IMG/VR virus record: IMGVR_UViG_3300030107_003104
Coordinates: 44,139-67,682 of that record
Length of the DNA stretch: 23,544 nt
Reading direction: 5' to 3' (one strand)
DNA from: a virus
Each line of letters starts with the position of its first letter. Positions within the stretch are counted from its first letter, which is position 1. The translations under genes were made by a program, and so were the position numbers. Below are positions 1,504 to 23,354 of this stretch, in pieces. The notes below the pieces were generated by a model. It was not told the DNA's origin, searched no databases, and saw only the letters and a program-made list of their open reading frames with translations.

Positions 1504-1715
1504 TGGAACTACTTAAATTGCTAATAAAAAGTTTCGAATCTAATACAAGAAATCCTAATGATAGGTATGCAGAATTTCTCTATCATTGCTATTATTCTTT
1601 GGATAAAAATAATAAATCTAAAAAGATGATAAATAAATATATTAACGATAAGGAATCCCTTATTAAATATATAATTGCTAACAAGAAAGCAATAACATCA
1701 GAATTATCTAAATGA
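1503..1715 (+). CDS. Small hypothetical protein (70 aa)
   Basis: A 70-residue ORF starting in the TAATG overlap with the preceding stop and ending in an ATGA overlap with the next gene, so it is translationally coupled on both sides. It is rich in Lys, Asn, Ile and Tyr and probably helical, with no membrane helix or recognisable domain. The tight junctions are the main evidence that it is a gene. I do not recognise the family. Confidence 0.6.
   Translation: MELLKLLIKSFESNTRNPNDRYAEFLYHCYYSLDKNNKSKKMINKYINDKESLIKYIIANKKAITSELSK
1628..1639 (+). promoter_or_regulatory. Possible internal late promoter (overlapping GATAAATA / AATAAATA)
   Basis: Two overlapping NATAAATA matches lie inside the 70-aa ORF, about 75-85 bases before the nucleotidyltransferase start at 1712. 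They could drive the capsid-protein block. In AT-rich coding sequence such matches also arise by chance. Confidence 0.3.
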
Positions 1716-3037
1716 AGTCTTTTCAACAGTTTATATCTGAATCTGCAGCTCAACAGGCACTTCGTCTTGGATTGGAAGGAGACGGACATGGAGGGTGGTA
1801 TAAAGATGGAGAATTCACAGCAAAGACAGAGAAAGGAAGATTAAGATTTTATAATAAGAGACAGAAAGCAGGACAAGATCCTCCACAAACAGAGAAAGAA
1901 AAGAATTTATCTCATTCTTCAACTGCAGGAGAAGAACCAGCAACAGTACAATCTCCTGTATCTCCACAGCAGATACCTAATCCAGCAGCACAACAAGGTG
2001 AAGCACCTGCTGAAGATCCTGCTGCAGCAGAAGGACCAGAACCAGGATCACCACAAGCAGTTTATACTCCACCTGATGTTCCTAAAACAAAAGGAACTCT
2101 ATCAGTTGGATTTGGAAGATTTAATCCACCTCATATGGGACATGGACAGTTAATGGATATTGCTGCAGGTTCTGCTAGGGATAGTGAAGAAGAAAGTGAC
2201 TATATGATTGTTCCATCTAAATCTACAGGTAAGGATACTGATCCATTAGATTTTGAGACTAAAGTTAAAGCAATGAAGGAGATGTTCCCACATCATTCTT
2301 CACATATTAATGATGATCCAGAGTTTAGAACTCTTCTTGATGTTCTTAAGTATGCTCATAATGAAGGATATGCTAATGTAAGAATCATTGCTGGTGGTAA
2401 AAGAGTAAAGCAATTTGGTGAATTATCACAAAAATATAATGGTGCTTTATATGATTTTGGTAATTTAGAAACATTATCATCTGGTGATAGAGATGAGGAT
2501 GGTGAAGGTATTGAAGCAATGTCTGCAACTACAGCAAGACAGGCTGCATTAGATAATGATTATGATACTTTTTCAAGTCAATTACCTAAAGATGATAAAG
2601 GTAATGATTTTGCAGGTGCAGAAGATTTATTTAAAGCAGTTCGTAAGGCATTAGGTGTTGAAGATGATGCAAAGAAAGAGAAGAAGAAAGAAGTTAAGGA
2701 ATGGAAGATTGCACCTAAGTTACATGCAAGAGAATTGAGAGAATATTATATTAGGAATGAAATTTATAATACTGGTGATAAAGTACAGGATTTAAATAAT
2801 GGATTGACTGGACGTATTATGCGTAGAGGAACTAATTACGTTATATGTGTATCAGAAGATAAGATAATGTTTAAGTCTTGGATTACCGATATCACTGAAG
2901 CTACATTCACACAAGTGTCTGGTGTTCCTGCAAGTCAGAGAGAAGTTGGAACAGATTCACTTAGAAAATACACAGAGAGGTTAACACCTGGAAGTACCTG
3001 GGGTAGAGAATTCATAAATAGGTATAGAAAAAAATAA
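1712..3037 (+). CDS. Capsid-targeted nucleotidyltransferase-like protein
   Basis: This 441-residue protein has three parts. Residues 1-11 (M-K-S-F-Q-Q-F-I-S-E-S) match the T4 capsid-targeting sequence of the internal proteins and Alt (MKTYQEFIAEA-like), including an I-x-E|S site expected for the prohead protease gp21. A Pro/Ala/Glu-rich linker follows (about 60-125). Then comes a nucleotidyltransferase-like domain with G-R-F-N-P-P-H-M-G-H (HxGH histidines 141 and 144) and a later S-A-T-T-A-R at 271-276, like the ISSTxxR motif of cytidylyl/adenylyltransferases. The C-terminal domain (about 345-400, N-N-G-L-T-G-R-I-M-R-R-G-T-N-Y) looks like one I associate with other cyanophage proteins. Family members transfer NMP to a phosphorylated acceptor; the substrate here is unknown. 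It starts in an ATGA overlap, with no clear Shine-Dalgarno. I infer packaging in the head. Confidence 0.8.
   Translation: MKSFQQFISESAAQQALRLGLEGDGHGGWYKDGEFTAKTEKGRLRFYNKRQKAGQDPPQTEKEKNLSHSSTAGEEPATVQSPVSPQQIPNPAAQQGEAPAEDPAAAEGPEPGSPQAVYTPPDVPKTKGTLSVGFGRFNPPHMGHGQLMDIAAGSARDSEEESDYMIVPSKSTGKDTDPLDFETKVKAMKEMFPHHSSHINDDPEFRTLLDVLKYAHNEGYANVRIIAGGKRVKQFGELSQKYNGALYDFGNLETLSSGDRDEDGEGIEAMSATTARQAALDNDYDTFSSQLPKDDKGNDFAGAEDLFKAVRKALGVEDDAKKEKKKEVKEWKIAPKLHARELREYYIRNEIYNTGDKVQDLNNGLTGRIMRRGTNYVICVSEDKIMFKSWITDITEATFTQVSGVPASQREVGTDSLRKYTERLTPGSTWGREFINRYRKK
3013..3020 (+). promoter_or_regulatory. Probable late promoter (CATAAATA)
   Basis: CATAAATA matches NATAAATA and lies 37 bases before the ATG at 3057, inside the end of the preceding gene. 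The position suits transcription of the basic capsid-associated protein. Confidence 0.45.
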
Positions 3038-3056: not shown

Positions 3057-5414
3057 ATGAGTAGTCAAATTTCTGAAGGTAATGACGCAGCCTTACAAAA
3101 AAGGATACGTCAAGCCGTATATGATATTCGTTACAAAGCGAGAAAAGAAGAACTTGATTTAAGACATGCTTATTCCCAATATATTGGGAAGAGTGGATTG
3201 GATCAAACTGGAAAAGAAGCAGTCCAGAATAAACTTTTCGGTAAAGGACAGCAACAGGAATCAAAAGTATTTGAGTCTGCAGATTCAAATAGATATAAAG
3301 TTAGAGTTACTGATAATGAATCTGGCAAAACTTATATCCGTTTTGCAAAACGTGGCAAGATAAACAAACTTCGTACTAAAGGTTCTGTTGAAATGACAGG
3401 ACATGGTAGTCCGAAGGGTGCTAAAAAATCTCCTTCTGTTAAAAAGAAGGATAGGAAAGTAAAATTAACTTCTGCAGGTCCAGCACCTAAAAAACCTACT
3501 AAAGCAACAGTAAAAGCAGGTATTAAAATTAAAGAAAAGCCACCAGTATTAAAAGTAGAACCTAGTAAAATGGAAACAAAAAAATCAGATCCAGTTGGTT
3601 CTGCAGTAGAATCATTACGTAAAGTAGTTAGAAAAGAAGCATTTATTGCTGATGCAGCAGCAGTTGCACCCCCAACAAATAAAAAAATTACAGGAGAAAA
3701 AGTGGACAACAGTAAATTGATTAAAGTATTCCCACAGGACGGTTCTGATCCTCAGATTGGAAGTATAAAATCTTCATACAAACCAGTAGGTGAGGTTGTC
3801 TCTGAAATTCTCGCTAAGGAATCAGCAACTCCTGAATCTGGAACTGGAAAGTATTATGTTCAAGGAAAGCCTACGGCACAACAAAAGAAAAATGCTGCAG
3901 ATAGAGCAGAGATAAGAAATTTAACAAATCAAGGTAGGCATAAAGAAGCAAGTGCTTTACATGCAAAAATTACAAAAACTTCAAAGGAAGAATTTGTAGA
4001 TCCATTCTATAAGTCAGTTGAAGATGATGGTGATGATGGAACAGGAAGATCAATGTATGCTAAGTGGAATAACGTAAAGAATAGATTGAGATCAATGGGT
4101 CTCAAGTGTAATTACGAATTAGAAGGTAATGAGTTAATAGAAGATGCTGTTGAGTACTTCTATGAGCAAGGTATTACAGAAGAGACTATTGATTTAATCG
4201 TTGAAGAAGTTGGACTTGATGATTTTGTTGAGTTTGTTTTAGATCCTCATCAAGATTTGGTTGAAGAGAGAGCAGCAAGAAAAGCAAAAGCAAATGCTCC
4301 TTCATATGAAAAGGTAAAGGCATCTGTTGATGCTGCTGATGCTGCAAAGAAGGCTGCTGGAAAGGGTGAATACTCTAAGACATATGCTAAGAGATCTGGC
4401 GAAACAGAAGATAGCACTAACTACAATGACAAACCTGCTGTTAAGAAAGTTGCTAAGAAAAAAGCAAAGCCAGTAGCAACTCCTGCTAAAAAGGCAGCAA
4501 CTAAAAAGAAAGTTACTACTGCTGTAAAGAAAGTTGCTAAGAAAGACTTTGATGGTGATGGTAATACGGAATCACCAAAGGCAGAATATAAAGGTTCTAA
4601 GGATAAGGCAATCAAAAAAGCAATTGCTAAAAAGGAAGGACTTCGTGGTAAGATTGCTGGTTTCGTTAAGAGGGGTGTCGAGCGTCATAAGGCAGCAACT
4701 AAAAAGGCATCAAGTGAAATTAAAAAGATTAAAAAGGTTACATCAGATACTGCTAAGAAACATTCTCAACATCGTAAGGACTTTGTTAAAGGACTTACAG
4801 AAGAAGAAAAATTAAGAGCATCTGGTAAGTTTACTGAAGAGCAAATAGAAGCAATTCTAGAAAGTGAAGATATTGATGAGGCTCGTAGAGCAGACAAGAT
4901 GGGTATCCCTAGAAAGAAAGTAACCTATGACAAAGGTGAGGAAACTAGAAACCCAAATCCAGATAGAGGACCAGCACCATCATTTAAACCTGAAGGTGGT
5001 TCTTTAGCTGGTAGTAAGGCAGCAAGTCGTGCAAGATCACTTGGAGATGCAAGAAGAAAAGCAAACAGAAAGGGTGCTAATTTGGCATATGGCAAGAGAG
5101 AAGGTAGGTTAGCAACTTTTGCTGCTAATAAAAGGGATTCGGATTCAGATCTTGGATCGCAAAAAGCAGTAACTGATACTGGAGCACATAAGGATAAGCA
5201 GGGATTCCGTCAAGTTCATAAGTATGGTGAGCGTGGTGATAAGAGAAGACCTCAACAGAATCCTAAGCATACAGCAAACACTCAGAAAGAGCATCATCAA
5301 GTAGATGCTAAAGGTAAAGTCATAGAGCATGGTGATGGTACACCAAGTTCTGTTGAAGAAGGATTTGTATGTGAGTCTACTCTTGTAAGGGATATTCTTT
5401 CAAAAAAGAACTAA
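3057..5414 (+). CDS. Large basic, probably capsid-internal protein with H1-like tract; zero-frame product of a frameshift pair
   Basis: This 785-residue, strongly basic protein starts S-S-Q-I-S-E-G, whose I-S-E|G fits the T4 gp21 cleavage consensus (I/L)xE|(A/G/S). Further matches are I-L-E|S and I-D-E|A near residues 600-608. An N-terminal helical segment (A-L-Q-K-R-I-R-Q-A-V-Y-D-I-R) resembles structural proteins of marine T4-like phages as I remember them. A low-complexity Lys/Ala/Pro/Val region at residues 459-496 has 16 Lys in 38 and resembles histone H1 tails. It is followed by D-F-D-G-D-G-N-T-E (497-505), an EF-hand-like loop. Acidic helices lie at about 360-410. DNA condensation or neutralisation inside the head is my inference. 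The frame ends at TAA 5412-5414, immediately after a slippery heptamer at 5402-5408, with a stem-loop at 5415-5437; see the frameshift entry. Confidence 0.8.
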   Translation: MSSQISEGNDAALQKRIRQAVYDIRYKARKEELDLRHAYSQYIGKSGLDQTGKEAVQNKLFGKGQQQESKVFESADSNRYKVRVTDNESGKTYIRFAKRGKINKLRTKGSVEMTGHGSPKGAKKSPSVKKKDRKVKLTSAGPAPKKPTKATVKAGIKIKEKPPVLKVEPSKMETKKSDPVGSAVESLRKVVRKEAFIADAAAVAPPTNKKITGEKVDNSKLIKVFPQDGSDPQIGSIKSSYKPVGEVVSEILAKESATPESGTGKYYVQGKPTAQQKKNAADRAEIRNLTNQGRHKEASALHAKITKTSKEEFVDPFYKSVEDDGDDGTGRSMYAKWNNVKNRLRSMGLKCNYELEGNELIEDAVEYFYEQGITEETIDLIVEEVGLDDFVEFVLDPHQDLVEERAARKAKANAPSYEKVKASVDAADAAKKAAGKGEYSKTYAKRSGETEDSTNYNDKPAVKKVAKKKAKPVATPAKKAATKKKVTTAVKKVAKKDFDGDGNTESPKAEYKGSKDKAIKKAIAKKEGLRGKIAGFVKRGVERHKAATKKASSEIKKIKKVTSDTAKKHSQHRKDFVKGLTEEEKLRASGKFTEEQIEAILESEDIDEARRADKMGIPRKKVTYDKGEETRNPNPDRGPAPSFKPEGGSLAGSKAASRARSLGDARRKANRKGANLAYGKREGRLATFAANKRDSDSDLGSQKAVTDTGAHKDKQGFRQVHKYGERGDKRRPQQNPKHTANTQKEHHQVDAKGKVIEHGDGTPSSVEEGFVCESTLVRDILSKKN

Positions 5415-5437
5415 GCCCAATTAACGAACGATTGGGC
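5387..5437 (+). promoter_or_regulatory. Predicted programmed -1 ribosomal frameshift cassette (dnaX-like)
   Basis: AAGGGA at 5387-5392 is Shine-Dalgarno-like. After 9 bases comes A AAA AAG at 5402-5408, in zero-frame register (tcA AAA AAG). The spacer AACTAA contains the zero-frame stop. A stem then pairs GCCCAAT 5415-5421 with ATTGGGC 5431-5437, plus a T-G pair, closing a 7-base loop. No T-tract follows, so it is not an intrinsic terminator. After the slip, reading resumes at GAA 5408-5410 and continues E-L-S-P-I-N-E-R into the frame that ends at 5875. This arrangement matches the known E. coli dnaX element. A homopolymer sequencing error in the A6 run is the alternative. Confidence 0.7.
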
Positions 5438-5875
5438 GGTAAGGGTTATAAACCTTATACTTCTCTAACAGGGAAGAAGGTTTCTGGTGACTGGGAAGAC
5501 TCTGATAGAGGTGCTGGTAACAAGGCAACCAGAAGATCAGGTGGAAGTGTAAAAGCTAAATCTCCTACTTACCTTGCCCACGTTCATAATAAAGTGAAAA
5601 AAGAAAGTTTCTCTGATTGGAGAAAGGATCTAGGTGAAGAAGGTTCTGATAAGATCAAAGATGCTCGTCTTGTTAACTATGGTATAGGACATGATGGTTC
5701 TGATAAGAAAGGATCAGTCAAACGTGCTCCTGAAACAAAAGTGAAAGGTAAAACTGTTCTTCAAAAGGAAACTGAGAAGAAGTATGGTAAAGGTGCATCT
5801 GTAATGGATGTTGTAAGGGCAAAGATTGAAAAGGAGCATGGTAAGGGTGCAATTTATGATGGAAAGAAAAAATGA
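5408..5875 (+). CDS. Minus-1 frame extension of the basic capsid protein (or separate structural protein)
   Basis: The open frame from 5408 to TGA at 5873-5875 encodes 155 residues. If entered by -1 frameshift at 5402-5408, it adds these to 784 zero-frame residues, giving about 939. The only canonical independent start is TTG 5432, which lies inside the 3' arm of the hairpin and has no Shine-Dalgarno, so stand-alone translation looks poor. The sequence after E-L-S-P-I-N-E-R-L-G-G-K-G-Y is basic and Gly/Lys rich. It includes S-G-D-W-E-D-S-D-R-G-A-G-N-K-A and K-S-P-T-Y-L-A-H-V, a conserved-looking motif set that I associate with cyanophage structural proteins. Coding character is clear in this frame; only the mode of initiation is uncertain. 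Confidence 0.7.
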   Translation, partial: ELSPINERLGGKGYKPYTSLTGKKVSGDWEDSDRGAGNKATRRSGGSVKAKSPTYLAHVHNKVKKESFSDWRKDLGEEGSDKIKDARLVNYGIGHDGSDKKGSVKRAPETKVKGKTVLQKETEKKYGKGASVMDVVRAKIEKEHGKGAIYDGKKK

Positions 5876-6219
5876 TTAATGATTTAGGGGTTGATCCCAA
5901 TGAGTGGTTTGATGATAGGTTTGTGAATCCATTAGATTCTATGCCTATAGCCACAAACGATAGGTTTGATATGTATGGTTCTTCTGATGCAGATTATGCA
6001 TTTATGAAAGCCCAAGTTCAACGAAAAGATCCACCTGCAGAACTTATGGAAATTCCAACATCAGTGACTAATCCCAAACCACCAGAAAAGAAAAAGGAGG
6101 TTAAAACTCCACATCATATAGCGTATGAGATTGCTACTGCAAAGTACAATCCATTTTCTGTAGGTGGTTCTGAAAGTATTCACGATTTCGAAGGAGGTTC
6201 AGAGAATCATGTTAAGTGA
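5872..6219 (+). CDS. Conserved small phage protein (115 aa)
   Basis: Starts at ATG 5872 in an ATGA overlap with the preceding stop, with a GGAAAG Shine-Dalgarno-like sequence upstream. It ends 11 bases into the next gene. The acidic N-terminal half has D-P-N-E-W-F-D-D-R-F and many Met and Asp residues; a Pro/Lys linker follows (about 65-80), then H-H-I-A-Y-E-I-A-T-A-K-Y. No membrane segment or enzymatic motif is visible. The location inside the capsid-protein block suggests a virion or assembly role, but function is unknown. Confidence 0.7.
   Translation: MINDLGVDPNEWFDDRFVNPLDSMPIATNDRFDMYGSSDADYAFMKAQVQRKDPPAELMEIPTSVTNPKPPEKKKEVKTPHHIAYEIATAKYNPFSVGGSESIHDFEGGSENHVK
6191..6197 (+). promoter_or_regulatory. 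Strong ribosome binding site AAGGAGG deciding the 6209 start
   Basis: A near-perfect anti-16S match lies 11 bases before ATG 6209. It selects that start over the longer in-frame ATG at 6164, which lacks such a site. The product then begins exactly at the DUF3008-like domain. It is unusually strong for this window, where most genes rely on coupling. Confidence 0.7.
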
Positions 6220-7972
6220 GAAGGCAAAGTCTAGAGCACAACAAAGATTCTTTGGAATGGTTCGTGCTGCCCAGAAGGGTGAAATGGAAAACCCATCTTC
6301 AGAAGTTTTAGATGCTGCTGATAGTATGACAGTTGATGATGTTAAAAAGTTTGCTAAGACAAAGCATAAAGGATTACCTGAAAAGAAAAAAGTTGAGGAA
6401 GCTGCTTTCTTAGCAGGTTTAGCAAAGGGTGCAATGGTAGCTGCTAAAGGTGCTGTTAAACAAAAAGCAAAACAAGTTATTAAGCAGAAAGCAGCAAATG
6501 TTGCAGCAGGTGTAATACCACAACCTAATAGAGATCAGCAGATGGAAAGTAAAGGAACTGCTGAACTTGCTGCTTTAGCACTTAGAGGTAAAAAGAGATG
6601 TGCAGAGTGTGGTAGTTTTTCACATGTTACTGGTGATTGTCCAAAGAAAGAACATTCAGTTAAGGAATCAAATAAATATAAAGGAGTACTTACAGATCCA
6701 ATGAAAGAAGCATATAGAGTTCTTGCCTCAAGTGATGGACAGGAGAAACCATCTCAATTTTCATATAAAGATGAGAAGACAGCTAAGAAGTATGCTGACA
6801 GTATTAAAAAAGGCGGTGGTAAAGCAACAGTTACTAAAGAAAGTGTTCTAACAAGACTTGGTAGGAAAAAGAAAGTGGAAGAAAAGAAACCAGGAAAGGC
6901 GATGGATGCTGGTGCTAGAGCAAAAAGATTATTGCAAAGAAAAATACATGCTAAGTATGTTTCTGGTAGTCAAGATTTAGTACCTGATGATATAAGAGAT
7001 CATTATGAAGTAGTTGATGAAAAGGTTGCTACTGGTCCTAGATTAGGTGAACCAAGACAGAAGGGTGCTACACATGTTAATGCTGGTGAAGGTGAGAAAG
7101 TTCAGGCAAGAACTTTGGCATGGATGAGAAAGAAAGGGCAGCAGGGTTCTCCTGGTATAAATGCAATGAAGGAAAGAGAAGCAGAGCACAAGGCAAAACG
7201 TGGTGTCAAGAAAGAAGGTGAGAAAGTTCAGGAAGCATCAGCAGTATTAGATGCCAATACTAAAATTAAAAATACACAGGATAGGAAGAAGAAAGAAAAA
7301 GAATATGCTAGACTTATGGGTATATTGGCACATCAAAAAGATCTGAAGAAAAGAGGTTTATCCAGTTCTTATGAATCAGAAGGTGAGATGGTTGAAGCTA
7401 GGGTAGATAAAGGACGTTCAGATTATGGTAAAGCAACTATTAGAAACTGGAGACATTCTGGACCTTCTACTGTAGATCCAGCAATGTTTGATCCTGAGAA
7501 TAAGAGGGGTAAGACAATTGACAAACGTAGAGAAGAGCACAAAGCAAGAAGAGGTGTTAAAGGTGCAAAGGTTCCTACCTATACGAAAAATGAAGAGTTG
7601 AGTATTGTAGATAGAATGCTTATAGAATATTCTCCAAATGTTGCTTATCAAGATAAAAAGAAAGGTAAGTTGGGTAAATCTTCTGTCTATAGTCTTAGGG
7701 GTAAAGATGAAAGTAAGAAAGACTTTAGAAAATCTCATGTTAAAGATATTGAAGGTGGATATGTTGGAGCAGGACACAAACCTACTCCTGGCAAATTGAA
7801 GAAAGAAGAAGTTGTTCTTGAGAAGAAGAAACAACCATCCGTACATGATGATTATTATGATCCTATGGAAGATCCTACATTTGATCCTCATGAGGCAGAA
7901 GCAACCAGAGGACAATCTGGTAGGGGTACAAAAGGGAAAATGAATGTCCGTAAGAAATATCCTGTAAAGTAA
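6209..7972 (+). CDS. DUF3008-like basic phage protein with a CCHC zinc knuckle
   Basis: From ATG 6209 the product is 587 residues. The N-terminus (S-R-A-Q-Q-R-F-F-G-M-V, then M-T-V-D-D-V-K-K-F-A-K-T-K-H-K-G-L-P-E-K) matches the DUF3008 pattern of phage proteins. An Ala/Lys helix follows. At about residues 131-144 comes C-A-E-C-G-S-F-S-H-V-T-G-D-C, a perfect CX2CX4HX4C zinc knuckle as in retroviral nucleocapsids. The remainder is a basic, low-complexity chain with two related segments, E-H-K-A-K-R-G-V-K near 7189 and E-H-K-A-R-R-G-V-K near 7534, and a 19-bp DNA direct repeat. Together with its position after the capsid-targeted proteins, this suggests a nucleic-acid-binding internal head protein. 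That role is inferred. Confidence 0.75.
   Translation: MLSEKAKSRAQQRFFGMVRAAQKGEMENPSSEVLDAADSMTVDDVKKFAKTKHKGLPEKKKVEEAAFLAGLAKGAMVAAKGAVKQKAKQVIKQKAANVAAGVIPQPNRDQQMESKGTAELAALALRGKKRCAECGSFSHVTGDCPKKEHSVKESNKYKGVLTDPMKEAYRVLASSDGQEKPSQFSYKDEKTAKKYADSIKKGGGKATVTKESVLTRLGRKKKVEEKKPGKAMDAGARAKRLLQRKIHAKYVSGSQDLVPDDIRDHYEVVDEKVATGPRLGEPRQKGATHVNAGEGEKVQARTLAWMRKKGQQGSPGINAMKEREAEHKAKRGVKKEGEKVQEASAVLDANTKIKNTQDRKKKEKEYARLMGILAHQKDLKKRGLSSSYESEGEMVEARVDKGRSDYGKATIRNWRHSGPSTVDPAMFDPENKRGKTIDKRREEHKARRGVKGAKVPTYTKNEELSIVDRMLIEYSPNVAYQDKKKGKLGKSSVYSLRGKDESKKDFRKSHVKDIEGGYVGAGHKPTPGKLKKEEVVLEKKKQPSVHDDYYDPMEDPTFDPHEAEATRGQSGRGTKGKMNVRKKYPVK
7088..7232 (+). repeat. Short direct repeat encoding E-G-E-K-V-Q
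   Basis: A 19-base sequence at 7088-7106 recurs identically at 7214-7232, 126 bases (42 codons) later, in the same frame of the DUF3008-like gene. It probably marks internal duplication of the basic segment. Confidence 0.6.
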
Positions 7973-14286: not shown

Positions 14287-14742
14287 ATGGAATCGACTGG
14301 TGAGGGACATTATGAAAACCCCTGGACCTATCAAGGTTCAACTTTTACTTCTGACGACATTAACGATTTCTTCGGTTACGTCTACTGCATTACAAATTTG
14401 CAATCGGGCAAGAAATACATCGGACGTAAATACTTTACCCAACGTAGAAAGCCTAGAGGTGGCAAAAGACGGGTTACGTCTGAGAGTGACTGGAAAAAGT
14501 ACTACGGAAGTTCTCCAGAGCTTAAAGCAGACGTTAAGGATTTTGGAAAACTCAACTTTAAACGAGAAATAATTAGTCTTCATAAAACTCTTGGTAAAGT
14601 AAATTATGAAGAGACTAGACAATTATTTTTAAATAATGTACTAACTGAATCTCTTGACAATGGAGAACCTGCATATTATAATAGCAATATTCTTGGCAGG
14701 TATATGAAAAAAGATTATGGCAACTTTGGACTCAACAGTTAG
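14287..14742 (+). CDS. GIY-YIG family putative endonuclease
   Basis: A 151-residue protein with G-Y-V-Y-C-I-T-N (GIY strand equivalent, about residues 30-37) and K-K-Y-I-G-R-K-Y-F (YIG strand plus following Arg, about 42-50). Later residues N-Y-E-E-T-R-Q-L-F and Y-Y-N could supply the metal-binding Glu and a conserved Asn. GIY-YIG proteins cut DNA with one metal ion. In T4-like phages they are often homing endonucleases, and position beside nrdB would suit a free-standing one. A repair or host-DNA-degrading role is equally possible. A late promoter precedes it, and its 3' end overlaps the next ORF by 26 bases. Codons in the first two thirds are C-rich. Confidence 0.7.
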   Translation: MESTGEGHYENPWTYQGSTFTSDDINDFFGYVYCITNLQSGKKYIGRKYFTQRRKPRGGKRRVTSESDWKKYYGSSPELKADVKDFGKLNFKREIISLHKTLGKVNYEETRQLFLNNVLTESLDNGEPAYYNSNILGRYMKKDYGNFGLNS

Positions 14743-20521: not shown

Positions 20522-20787
20522 TGAAAGGTTACACTAAAGAAGATATTAAAAGGATATTAGGAACTTCTTGGCCTACTATGCCTGAAGACCATGAGACTGG
20601 TAATCAGAGAAGGAGGAGAATAGGTAATGAGATGAGAGCAGGATTGAGACCTTATCCCACATATACTGCAAAGAAGGTGGGTCCAAATTTTGATGAGAAT
20701 GGAAAGTATATCTATCCAGAAGGATCTGGTTTTAATTATATGGAGAGACTGGATCCTAATTCTGAATGGGGTGGTAAAGTATCTTAG
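20521..20787 (+). CDS. Small basic phage protein (88 aa), GTG start
   Basis: GTG 20521 lies in a TAGTG overlap with the previous stop. The protein is soluble with Arg-rich N-Q-R-R-R-R-I-G-N-E-M-R-A-G-L-R and a Tyr/Pro/Gly-rich C-terminal half (Y-P-T-Y-T-A-K-K-V-G-P). Its 3' end overlaps the convergent minus-strand gene by 4 bases, leaving no room for a separate terminator. No family recognised. Confidence 0.6.
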   Translation: MKGYTKEDIKRILGTSWPTMPEDHETGNQRRRRIGNEMRAGLRPYPTYTAKKVGPNFDENGKYIYPEGSGFNYMERLDPNSEWGGKVS

Positions 20788-21680
20788 TTTTTCTTTTTGT
20801 AATCCTTTAATCTTTTTTGTTGTTCCTTCTCACTTTTCTTCTCAGACTTCATTCTCTTAGCATGATCTTTAGCAAAATTGATTCCAACTAAACCTTTTTT
20901 CACACGATACTCATTTGTTTTTAGTTCAGCTTGAGTTGGTTTATAAGGAGTCTTACCAAGTATCTTATTAACTTTAGTCAATATCTGTTTGATTGCAGGT
21001 TTAAAAACCCTTAGTAGTAAATCTGCTAGGGGTTTTGCTAATAGTGCAGATGCACCAGCCACTCCTGCAATAGATGCAGTAGTCATTGCAACCTGTGCGG
21101 AGGGTAGATACTGTTCTACTACACCAATATCCTCATACAATTCTACACATATAAGAGTTCCTTGTGGTGTCTTTTGTAATTCATGTCCTATTACTTTTTC
21201 TTTTTCACTAGGACCTACTGCACCAATACGTAGTGATTGTGGACCAGGGCAATCAGGATCTTTATCTGTCTTAGGAATGGTAGGTGTTTCTGGTGTATCA
21301 AGATTTGGTTCAGGTGGTGGTGGAACTACAGGTGGTTTCTGTTCATAAGTCATTATCAATTGTTCTGGTTCATAATTCATTGCATCATAATGGGGGTAAG
21401 AACCATCAGGACATAGCGTCATTGCTTCCCCTTCATCATTCTCTACAAGATCTTTATCGATTGGTATATTGTTCTTATGTCTTTTATTGTCCTTATGTGC
21501 CTTTACACAACCAGGTATATTGATAATAGGATTACCAATATTAACTACTACAGGTGGAAGTAAATAATCGACATTGGGTTGTGTAACCATCCATCTAGGA
21601 ATATAAACATTTTCTACATTAGGAATTTGATAAGTATTAACCTTCTGAACATTATGAATATTAATTTTTGGTATACTCAT
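20784..21680 (-). CDS. Conserved phage protein with Pro-rich linker and hydrophobic segment (298 aa)
   Basis: The last gene of the minus-strand operon, starting in the TAATG overlap with the gene upstream. Order: an N-terminal region of repeated N-I/V-x-N/V motifs; C-P-D-G-S-Y-P-H-Y (about 89-97); a Pro-rich linker with P-V-V-P-P-P-P-E-P; a central domain (L-R-I-G-A-V-G-P-S-E-K-E-K); a hydrophobic Ala/Gly-rich stretch (about 200-215, A-S-I-A-G-V-A-G-A-S-A-L-L-A); and a strongly basic C-terminus with K-S-E-K-K-S-E-K-E-Q-Q-K. No signal peptide, although its three operon partners appear exported. It may stay in the cell or be a virion component. Confidence 0.65.
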   Translation of the reverse strand: MSIPKINIHNVQKVNTYQIPNVENVYIPRWMVTQPNVDYLLPPVVVNIGNPIINIPGCVKAHKDNKRHKNNIPIDKDLVENDEGEAMTLCPDGSYPHYDAMNYEPEQLIMTYEQKPPVVPPPPEPNLDTPETPTIPKTDKDPDCPGPQSLRIGAVGPSEKEKVIGHELQKTPQGTLICVELYEDIGVVEQYLPSAQVAMTTASIAGVAGASALLAKPLADLLLRVFKPAIKQILTKVNKILGKTPYKPTQAELKTNEYRVKKGLVGINFAKDHAKRMKSEKKSEKEQQKRLKDYKKKN

Positions 21681-22567
21681 TAGTCTTTAACATTACCAAT
21701 AGAGAATGTACCTAAATCATCTGCAGTTCCATTTGCTTGAACTTCTTGGGGTGGTTCTATCTTAACTTCATTAGGAGTAAAGGTGTGCATATGAGGAACG
21801 ACTACACCAGCAGGTTGTACTAACATAACATCAGCACATACACTATGATATGGTGATTTTGGGTGGAACATTATACCAGATTTTTTAAGTTCACCACAGT
21901 TCTTAAGTCTTGCCAACTCAAAGTCCAATCTCTTATTTGCAGTCAATTGTCTTTGCATATCAATTTGGACTGCTGCTGCTTCTTTACATTGTGCTTGTAA
22001 GTCCTTATCTAATGGACGACTCCATGTAGCAGAGAGTCCTAGTGACACATTATAACTATCTGACTGATTCGTTCTTGTAGGCATATAATATAAAATATTT
22101 CCTGGATTGTCTATCTGTCCATCATCGTCAGCATCATGAACGTCATACACTGGTTCGTCATAGTATGCTTCATATGGACGTTTAAATGCCATACCTCCAG
22201 TAACATAGGGAGTTACGTTCATGGTAGCACCTTGACATTGGATACCACCACCATAGGTGTTAGTTATGTATGGACCTTGTAAAACCTGTATGGCTTGATT
22301 GGTTACTGAGCCAGAAGAGTTGGCGATTGGATTTGCAGTAGCGGATACACCACCTACGTCTGCTGCATAGGTAGGTGATCCTATGAATAATGCTGCTACT
22401 GCGTAAAGGTACTTGTAGTATCGGTTACGCTGTTTATAGTTGTTGTTCTTTGTATGACTGTGTGATTTGAAAGGCCAGGTCCTTGGTAACTTTCTGTGAA
22501 TTGAAAAGCTGCTCCTGGTGTTACTATTGAGAATTCTGGACGATCCTGTAGATTCAATCCGTTCCAT
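21680..22567 (-). CDS. Exported conserved phage protein; translation start unresolved
   Basis: The convincing protein begins with a signal peptide at about residues 52-69 (K-Y-L-Y-A-V-A-A-L-F-I-G-S-P-T-Y-A, cleavage before A-D-V-G-G). It continues N-Q-A-I-Q-V-L-Q-G-P-Y-I-T-N, the Asp-rich loop D-A-D-D-D-G-Q-I-D (Ca-binding type), a helical middle and F-H-P-K-S-P-Y-H-S-V-C-A-D. I recall similar proteins in cyanophages. The problem is initiation: the only ATG is 22567, which would put some 50 unlikely residues before the signal peptide and overlap the upstream gene by 172 bases. No ATG, GTG or TTG lies in between. Options are a non-canonical start, frameshift from upstream, or an assembly indel. 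Confidence 0.65.
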   Translation of the reverse strand: MERIESTGSSRILNSNTRSSFSIHRKLPRTWPFKSHSHTKNNNYKQRNRYYKYLYAVAALFIGSPTYAADVGGVSATANPIANSSGSVTNQAIQVLQGPYITNTYGGGIQCQGATMNVTPYVTGGMAFKRPYEAYYDEPVYDVHDADDDGQIDNPGNILYYMPTRTNQSDSYNVSLGLSATWSRPLDKDLQAQCKEAAAVQIDMQRQLTANKRLDFELARLKNCGELKKSGIMFHPKSPYHSVCADVMLVQPAGVVVPHMHTFTPNEVKIEPPQEVQANGTADDLGTFSIGNVKD

Positions 22568-22836
22568 GTTGAAGTCACCCCGTCTAATGTTACTTGTGTT
22601 GCGTTAATAGAATCTGCTCCTGTTGGCGTTAGATTTCCATTTGATTCCACATTGGTGCCAGTCACTACGTACTGCCAGCCTGTGTTATAATCCATCGAAT
22701 TTATTGTCTCCGTTACGGTAGACGTAGTTTCCGTATGGCTAGTCATTGATCCCTGGGTAAAATTTGGGACCACAGGCACTGCTCTTGCAGCACCTGTACC
22801 ACTAAGCAGTAGTAATACTGTTAGTATCTGTTTCAT
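22396..22836 (-). CDS. Secreted Thr/Ser-rich protein, paralogue of the upstream gene (146 aa)
   Basis: Signal peptide M-K-Q-I-L-T-V-L-L-L-L-S-G-T-G-A-A-R-A (cleavage after A-R-A at about 19). The mature part is rich in Thr, Ser and Asn and predicted beta-stranded. W-Q-Y-V-V-T-G-T-N-V and A-A-F-Q-F-T-E-S-Y match T-Y-T-V-S-G-S-N-I and S-A-F-S-F-S-E-S-W in the gene upstream, so the two are tandem paralogues. The ATG is 2 bases after the upstream stop. It overlaps the downstream frame heavily. A secreted or envelope-exposed phage protein is an unusual product; function unknown. Confidence 0.75.
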   Translation of the reverse strand: MKQILTVLLLLSGTGAARAVPVVPNFTQGSMTSHTETTSTVTETINSMDYNTGWQYVVTGTNVESNGNLTPTGADSINATQVTLDGVTSTWNGLNLQDRPEFSIVTPGAAFQFTESYQGPGLSNHTVIQRTTTINSVTDTTSTFTQ

Positions 22837-22838
22837 GA

Positions 22839-23354
22839 CTACTGAAGTTCTATTTCAGTCACGAATTGACCAGTAGCTGTTGTGCCAGCTCCACCTGCGG
22901 TTAGAGTCGTCACACCTGCGGAGGTAATAGTACCTGCAAGCGTACCTGCGACACCACCAGACATCGTTAAAACTTCGCCATATGCTGGCAAGTCAGCTAC
23001 GACACCACTGGTAACATCCGCACCAGAACCGATAGCATTTACTACGTCTCCTTGAGTCCAGGATTCACTAAAGCTGAAAGCCGAGCCTGCGGTATTTACG
23101 TCGTATGCACCAACGTCTAGTGTTGCTGCTGCTGTTGCAGTACCAGCAGTTAACTTACCGAAGTGTGCATCATCTGCTACCTTAATATTGGATCCAGATA
23201 CTGTATAAGTACTACCTATACGAGTTGCATCGGTATAAGCTCCATTCACACTCAGTTGAGTTGAGCTAGTCATTCTATGGGTCAGGTCTGCACGAGCTGG
23301 TGCAACTACTGCACCTGTCATCAATAACATAATCAAAGGTAAAAATTTCTTCAT
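22839..23354 (-). CDS. Secreted Gly/Thr/Ala-rich protein, first gene of the minus-strand operon (171 aa)
   Basis: A classical signal peptide (M-K-K-F-L-P-L-I-M-L-L-M-T-G-A-V-V-A-P-A-R-A, cleavage after A-R-A, about 22) leads a low-complexity beta-type protein with many Thr, Gly, Ala and Val and no Cys. It shares the S-G-S-N-I and F-S-F-S-E-S-W signatures with its downstream neighbour. A late promoter on the minus strand at 23389-23382 and TAAGG just before the ATG support the start. It could be a surface or fibre-like exported protein; curlin repeats are not evident. C-ending codons are commoner than in the plus-strand genes. Confidence 0.75.
   Translation of the reverse strand: MKKFLPLIMLLMTGAVVAPARADLTHRMTSSTQLSVNGAYTDATRIGSTYTVSGSNIKVADDAHFGKLTAGTATAAATLDVGAYDVNTAGSAFSFSESWTQGDVVNAIGSGADVTSGVVADLPAYGEVLTMSGGVAGTLAGTITSAGVTTLTAGGAGTTATGQFVTEIELQ

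Follow-up and report, generated by a model that had tools for sequence, protein, structure and literature searches.

Genes at the locus

The window, as the whole analysed stretch of 23,544 nucleotides is called here, lies within a virus contig of 67.7 kb (IMG/VR record IMGVR_UViG_3300030107_003104), and its cytidylyltransferase, primase gp61 and nrdA genes match those of Kyanoviridae (T4-like cyanophages). The features under study (Table 1) centre on the 3' end of a gene, here the zero-frame gene, whose cyanophage relative is PSSM2_195 of P-SSM2, a T4-GC 191 protein, and whose N-terminus also matches phrog_3326. Both its homologous N-terminus and its position right after T4-GC 190, the order found at the equivalent position in P-SSM2, place it in T4-GC 191, and its neighbours are the cytidylyltransferase, a DUF3008-like gene, gp61 primase and nrdA. 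T4-GC 190 has been detected in virions of S-SM1 (PMC3037559), and NMNAT or cytidylyltransferase proteins in those of other cyanophages (PMC9602691, PMC10665884). Judging from these neighbours, it is plausible that the zero-frame product is a structural or virion-associated modular protein; the initial annotation had spoken of phage structural frames, which suits the position beside T4-GC 190, although the gene lies outside the head operon. Pfam holds no family for either the zero or the -1 frame, and in PHROG both frames match only families of unknown function.

The region 3057-7972 of the window and the homologous loci L003-L137 encode a cyanophage protein family built of short modules, among them LGGKGY, GIGHDGSD, KYGKGA, DUF3008-like and KRREEHKARRGVKGAKVP, in an order that varies between phages; most of these modules have no Pfam family.

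Table 1. Coordinates of the proposed frameshift cassette and of the adjoining genes in the window
Feature	Position	Strand	Remarks
Cytidylyltransferase/NMNAT-like gene (T4-GC 190)	1712..3037	+	adjoins zero-frame gene
Zero-frame gene	3057..5414	+	785 aa; T4-GC 191 homologue, Lys-rich, modular
Shine-Dalgarno-like AAGGGA	5387..5392	+	9 nt 5' of heptamer; window phage only
Slippery heptamer A_AAA_AAG	5402..5408	+	in zero frame (tcA AAA AAG AAC TAA); identical in all four phages
-1 extension (P0001)	5408..5875	+	155 sense codons from G5408, stop 5873-5875
Zero-frame TAA stop	5412..5414	+	inside 6-nt spacer; kept in all four phages
Stem-loop GCCCAATT-AACGAAC-GATTGGGC	5415..5437	+	6 nt past heptamer; pairing kept in all four phages
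-1 codons I-N-E-R	5420..5431	+	[LIV]-x-E-R ahead of every LGGKGY domain (41/41 distinct copies)
LGGKGY...GDWEDSDRG...SPTYLAHVHNK domain	5432..5593	+	elsewhere an internal module, or N-terminal with its own ATG
Next gene downstream	5872..6219	+	ATG overlaps -1 ORF stop (ATGA)

Anatomy of the cassette

The zero-frame gene ends in TCA-AAA-AAG-AAC-TAA, so that a heptamer of the dnaX type (X_XXY_YYZ, read in the zero frame) immediately precedes its stop, here as at three homologous loci. The initial annotation had described this as a dnaX-like cassette, and direct reading of the sequence bears out the in-frame heptamer, the stop within the spacer, and a -1 frame open for 155 codons whose one candidate start, a TTG, falls in the hairpin; the product sizes it predicted also agree with those expected from this reading, 785 aa unshifted and 939 aa (784 + 155) for the fusion. 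The hairpin is where it had been placed, 6 bases past the heptamer, but ViennaRNA pairs 8 bp rather than 7, the eighth being a terminal U.G, around a 7-nt loop, at about -9.7 kcal/mol. Counted from the first base of the AAA codon in the P site, the stem starts 12 nt downstream, within the range of 11-12 nt at which the dnaX hairpin pauses ribosomes (PMC7282821). By itself the hairpin is moderately unusual, with 1.5% of 36-nt stretches in the window folding as stably and z = -2.5 against shuffled sequences, and a case built on its stability alone was dropped for that reason; it is the comparative data that lift the case above chance.

The third dnaX element, an internal Shine-Dalgarno about 10 nt 5' of the heptamer, has a counterpart in AAGGGA, which is present as annotated but is not common to the other three loci, designated A, B and C, so that only two of the three elements are conserved. 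The best upstream anti-Shine-Dalgarno energies are -4.4 kcal/mol in the window, -3.1 in A, -3.3 in B (at a distance of 23-25 nt) and -2.2 in C. A Shine-Dalgarno is a stimulator that not all -1 signals need, and in the window phage AAGGGA could add to slippage. Slippage at A_AAA_AAG is favoured by the single tRNA-Lys of E. coli, for which AAA is a better partner than AAG (PMC5009743), and a host with a second tRNA-Lys reading AAG would be expected to show less of it; the window itself contains no tRNA genes.

No start codon precedes the TTG at 5432 in the -1 frame. The first 62 residues of this frame make up a domain, ERLGGKGY...GDWEDSDRG...SPTYxAxVxNK, that is present in many phage contigs, and the remainder of the extension matches the C-terminal module of other proteins, such as PSSM2_212 of P-SSM2. 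An AlphaFold model of the -1 product is poor (pLDDT 55, pTM 0.22). Standard ORF callers would begin the -1 ORF at the in-stem TTG, giving 147 aa and losing the conserved ER; TTG-start calls of this kind are likely to be annotation errors in related genomes.

Conservation of the cassette across four loci

The cassette occurs in four independent contigs: the window (= 3300020395_000138), 3300020473_000087 (A), 3300030107_002649 (B) and 3300030117_004284 (C). Contig 3300020395_000138 is identical to the window over 13.8 kb, and the collected loci L002, L056, L085 and L153, all of which belong to it, were not counted as independent. The cytidylyltransferase gene lies directly 5' of the cassette gene in the window, A and C, while in B one gene intervenes and the N-terminal match to T4-GC 191 is not clear. 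Upstream of the heptamer the zero frame is open for 1246 codons in A and 627 in B, and the gene of C encodes 546 aa.

An ungapped four-way alignment delimits the conserved block sharply, with 2 of 60 identical columns upstream, 36 of 45 in the block itself (5402-5446) and 3 of 30 after it; the 5' edge of the block is the first A of the heptamer, and pairwise identity is 82-96% within it as against 33-67% in the 15 bases upstream. Its nine variable columns are distributed over the loop (four), the spacer (one), third codon positions past the stem (two) and the stem (two), whereas the heptamer and the TAA are invariant. Both stem changes are one-sided and keep the pairing (A-U to G-U, U-A to U-G), all eight pairs form in each of the four sequences, and the stem energies stay between -9.7 and -10.0 kcal/mol despite the differing loops. 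Thus the alignment of homologues proposed as a check in the initial annotation finds the slippery site and the stem kept throughout, but none of the double compensatory changes it had hoped for among the four cassettes, so that covariation support is weak.

Codon choice in the stem provides an additional measure of constraint. The 3' arm encodes R-L-G, for which all four cassettes use TTG GGC, and in the window GGC accounts for 5% of Gly codons and TTG for 17% of Leu codons. None of 32 non-cassette copies of the domain has GGC, in place of which GGT, GGA or GGG is found; the Fisher probability of this distribution (4/4 vs 0/32) is near 2e-5, a value that is overstated if the cassettes share a recent origin. 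Such an origin is a possibility, as the four cassettes, all at a gene end in an equivalent position, may descend from one, and part of the block identity could reflect descent or recombination instead of constraint.

The cassette is rare. Without any protein constraint, the pattern heptamer + TRAGCCC + GGGCGG is found in only these four of 2.9 million IMG/VR contigs, and blastn of the cassette against the phage collection did not find it. Among the collected loci, ten cases combine an in-frame XXXYYYZ near an ORF end with a -1 extension 45 codons or more in length; A AAA AAG occurs in only four of them, all cassette loci, where the in-stem TTG is the sole start near the junction. A scan for heptamers near stops in the P-SSM2, S-T4 and S-SRM01 regions and in the rest of the window contig yielded no comparable start-less site. 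T4-GC 191 homologues number 372 confirmed stretches, yet among the best 80 of these the only cassette is that of the window's own contig (L153), 13 of the 80 being unjudgeable as the gene runs off the contig; the cassette is thus a rare feature of a common gene. Chance matches were set aside: 13 of 17 IMG/VR matches to AAAAAAGNNNTAAGCCCRAT, and all seven pattern matches in genome contigs, have no long zero frame ending there.

The -1 frame and its domain elsewhere

Of 38 distinct copies of the domain, 31 are internal to one long ORF, three are preceded at a short distance by an ATG, and the remaining four are the start-less ones behind the cassette, which is absent from all 34 others. The search for one-frame homologues suggested at the outset therefore found what it sought, since every copy outside the four loci lacks the cassette and is either part of a continuous frame or provided with an ATG of its own. 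The -1 products of the four loci are homologous from the first residue past the slip. In all six pairs of -1 ORFs, with the cassette excluded, dN is below dS, the pairs being divergent and partly saturated and the values approximate. The gene that follows is directly adjacent to the -1 ORF or overlaps it in all four phages (ATGA, TAATG or GTG overlap), as expected of translated neighbours. Block conservation, dN below dS and the stem codons together indicate that selection keeps the signal as well as both frames, as is characteristic of a dnaX-type site.

Proposed frameshifting and its alternatives

Its recurrence in three more viruses that have diverged in other respects makes the signal look real and selected. 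Comparison of the four loci with their diverged flanks supports the initial proposal, and we consider it probable, at roughly 0.86, that the block at 5402-5446 joins two frames as a programmed -1 ribosomal frameshift signal of the dnaX type. Ribosomes translating the T4-GC 191 homologue would be held up on A_AAA_AAG when the stem-loop meets the mRNA entry channel, and in some of them both lysyl-tRNAs would re-pair one base back, on AAA AAA. Slipped ribosomes would go on in the -1 frame and produce a protein of 939 aa with the LGGKGY module at its end; the others would decode AAC, terminate at TAA and release the protein of 785 aa. The purpose may be to set the ratio of short and extended forms of a probably virion-associated modular protein, with the prohead protease perhaps cleaving the extended form at I-x-E. 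We infer the ribosomal nature of the slip, its efficiency and its purpose from this arrangement.

The most serious competing explanation, although an unlikely one, is separate translation of the -1 ORF, which would start at TTG 5432 (or the non-standard ATT at 5420) through internal initiation, or through re-initiation coupled to termination at the TAA of 5412-5414. This works without any frameshift: a -1-frame TTG is present at all four loci, termination occurs just 18 nt upstream of it, and in locus C a GAGG stands 5 nt before it. However, the stem encloses the TTG, the codon for the conserved L of LGGKGY, and a start at this point would cost the protein the ER that all 41 of 41 copies share; in the copies that truly start a protein (L070, L109, L118) the ATG lies upstream of ER. 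Neither is any Shine-Dalgarno before the TTG common to the loci, and re-initiation leaves the conserved A_AAA_AAG at the start of the block unexplained.

Less probable still is transcriptional slippage on the A6-A7 run, by which mixed mRNAs would arise, part of them encoding the fused frame. A homopolymeric A run is indeed present, but efficient transcriptional slippage needs runs of about nine or more, against six here and seven in one locus. The terminal G of the heptamer, the fixed spacing of the stop and the stem 6 nt downstream also fit a ribosome better than a slipping polymerase. On the other side of the balance, a precedent for this mechanism comes from Thermus dnaX, which uses transcriptional slippage (PMC5009743).

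A slight chance is left for the block being mainly a connector at the DNA level, a joint for recombination between modules, with frameshifting incidental to it. The very sharp upstream edge of the block and the different modules on both sides would suit such a joint, which however has no need of the register, the stop and the stem that are preserved through every change, nor does it sit well with the rarity of the block among the best 80 of the numerous T4-GC 191 homologues. Finally, a frameshift mutation, decaying gene or assembly error, in which an indel broke one ancestral frame, agrees with the continuous frame of most domain relatives but is contradicted by the recurrence of the junction in four independent contigs whose flanks have diverged, by stem codons missing from the single-frame relatives and by constraint on the -1 frame, and is given almost no weight.

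Programmed -1 frameshifting of the dnaX type is in itself already known, and the novelty here is that a signal with sharp boundaries has been conserved while the modules on either side diverge. No report of frameshifting in T4-like cyanophages or in the T4-GC 191 gene family was found in the open-licence literature. Conserved as it is within a modular gene that evolves fast, and next to a virion-associated enzyme, the signal makes a clean, testable case of recoding, which would here control protein dosage in abundant marine viruses. Proteins of this kind would be broken in two by gene callers, with a false TTG start assigned to the second part.

Modularity and a possible prohead-protease motif

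Past LGGKGY, the window and C domains are closest to non-cassette copies (0.77 to L007 and 0.86 to L057) and not to those of the other cassette loci. Since these domains resemble non-cassette copies and the upstream sequences differ, the simplest reading is that the modules around the cassette have been exchanged. At the joint itself the block encodes I-x-E, in the [LIV]-x-E-R motif that precedes the domain; L or I takes the first position in 31 of 41 copies, and I-x-E-R is found in all four cassettes. The T4 prohead protease gp21 cleaves after L/I-X-E (PMC9026906), a consensus to which I-N-E corresponds as a candidate site. L/I-x-E is enriched 1.5-fold in the module proteins, but the reversed control E-x-L/I is also enriched, 1.7-fold, so that only the invariant boundary motif was used. 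A cut at this motif would, hypothetically, release the LGGKGY module. A more far-reaching and doubtful proposal takes the block as a self-contained, exchangeable frameshift connector, with modules swapped by recombination on either side and any C-terminal module attached to it supplied automatically at a fixed minor ratio; given the I-x-E at the joint, the prohead protease may then release this module in the capsid. If true, the connector would control the dose of an internal head protein in a gag-pol-like manner. As a separate observation, Lys-rich modular proteins carrying [LIV]-x-E-R may be polyproteins that are cut in the prohead.

Comparison with known frameshift systems

The closest counterpart of the proposed frameshift signal is that of E. 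coli dnaX, with the same A_AAA_AAG heptamer and a hairpin 11-12 nt from the start of the P-site codon. The two differ in that the dnaX slip gives a shorter product whereas that of the cassette would add a C-terminal module, and in the shorter stem (8 bp), the lack of a conserved Shine-Dalgarno and the unrelated gene. Like the tail assembly chaperone of long-tailed phages (lambda gpG/gpGT), the cassette lies in a phage gene and would give, by a -1 slip, a common N-terminus and a C-terminal extension in a fraction of the product. Unlike tail-chaperone genes, which lie between the major tail protein and the tape measure, the cassette gene lies between cytidylyltransferase and gp61 primase and has no tape-measure gene next to it. 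The tail chaperones of T4-like phages are reported to use a mechanism other than frameshifting, according to the title of Vladimirov 2022 as cited in PMC10885494.

Capsid frameshifts, to judge from the titles of cited works, resemble the proposed cassette slip in yielding -1-made, C-terminally extended minor virion forms (T7 gene 10, the major head protein of Lactobacillus phage A2, Listeria phage PSA), but differ from it in that the cassette gene encodes a Lys-rich modular protein and not a major capsid protein. In IS3-family elements an A_AAA_AAG-type heptamer is followed by structure and transposase ORFs occupy both frames, whereas in Pfam and PHROG the two frames of the cassette match no transposase family.

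Other features of the window

Elsewhere in the window, an ORF at 14287-14742 resembles, by eye, a GIY-YIG-type endonuclease (YCITNLQSGKKYIGRKYF) and overlaps a second ORF of 96 aa in another frame. Four ORFs are clustered on the minus strand at 20784-23354, opposite to the strand of the other genes, and some of them have N-termini that by eye look like signal peptides.
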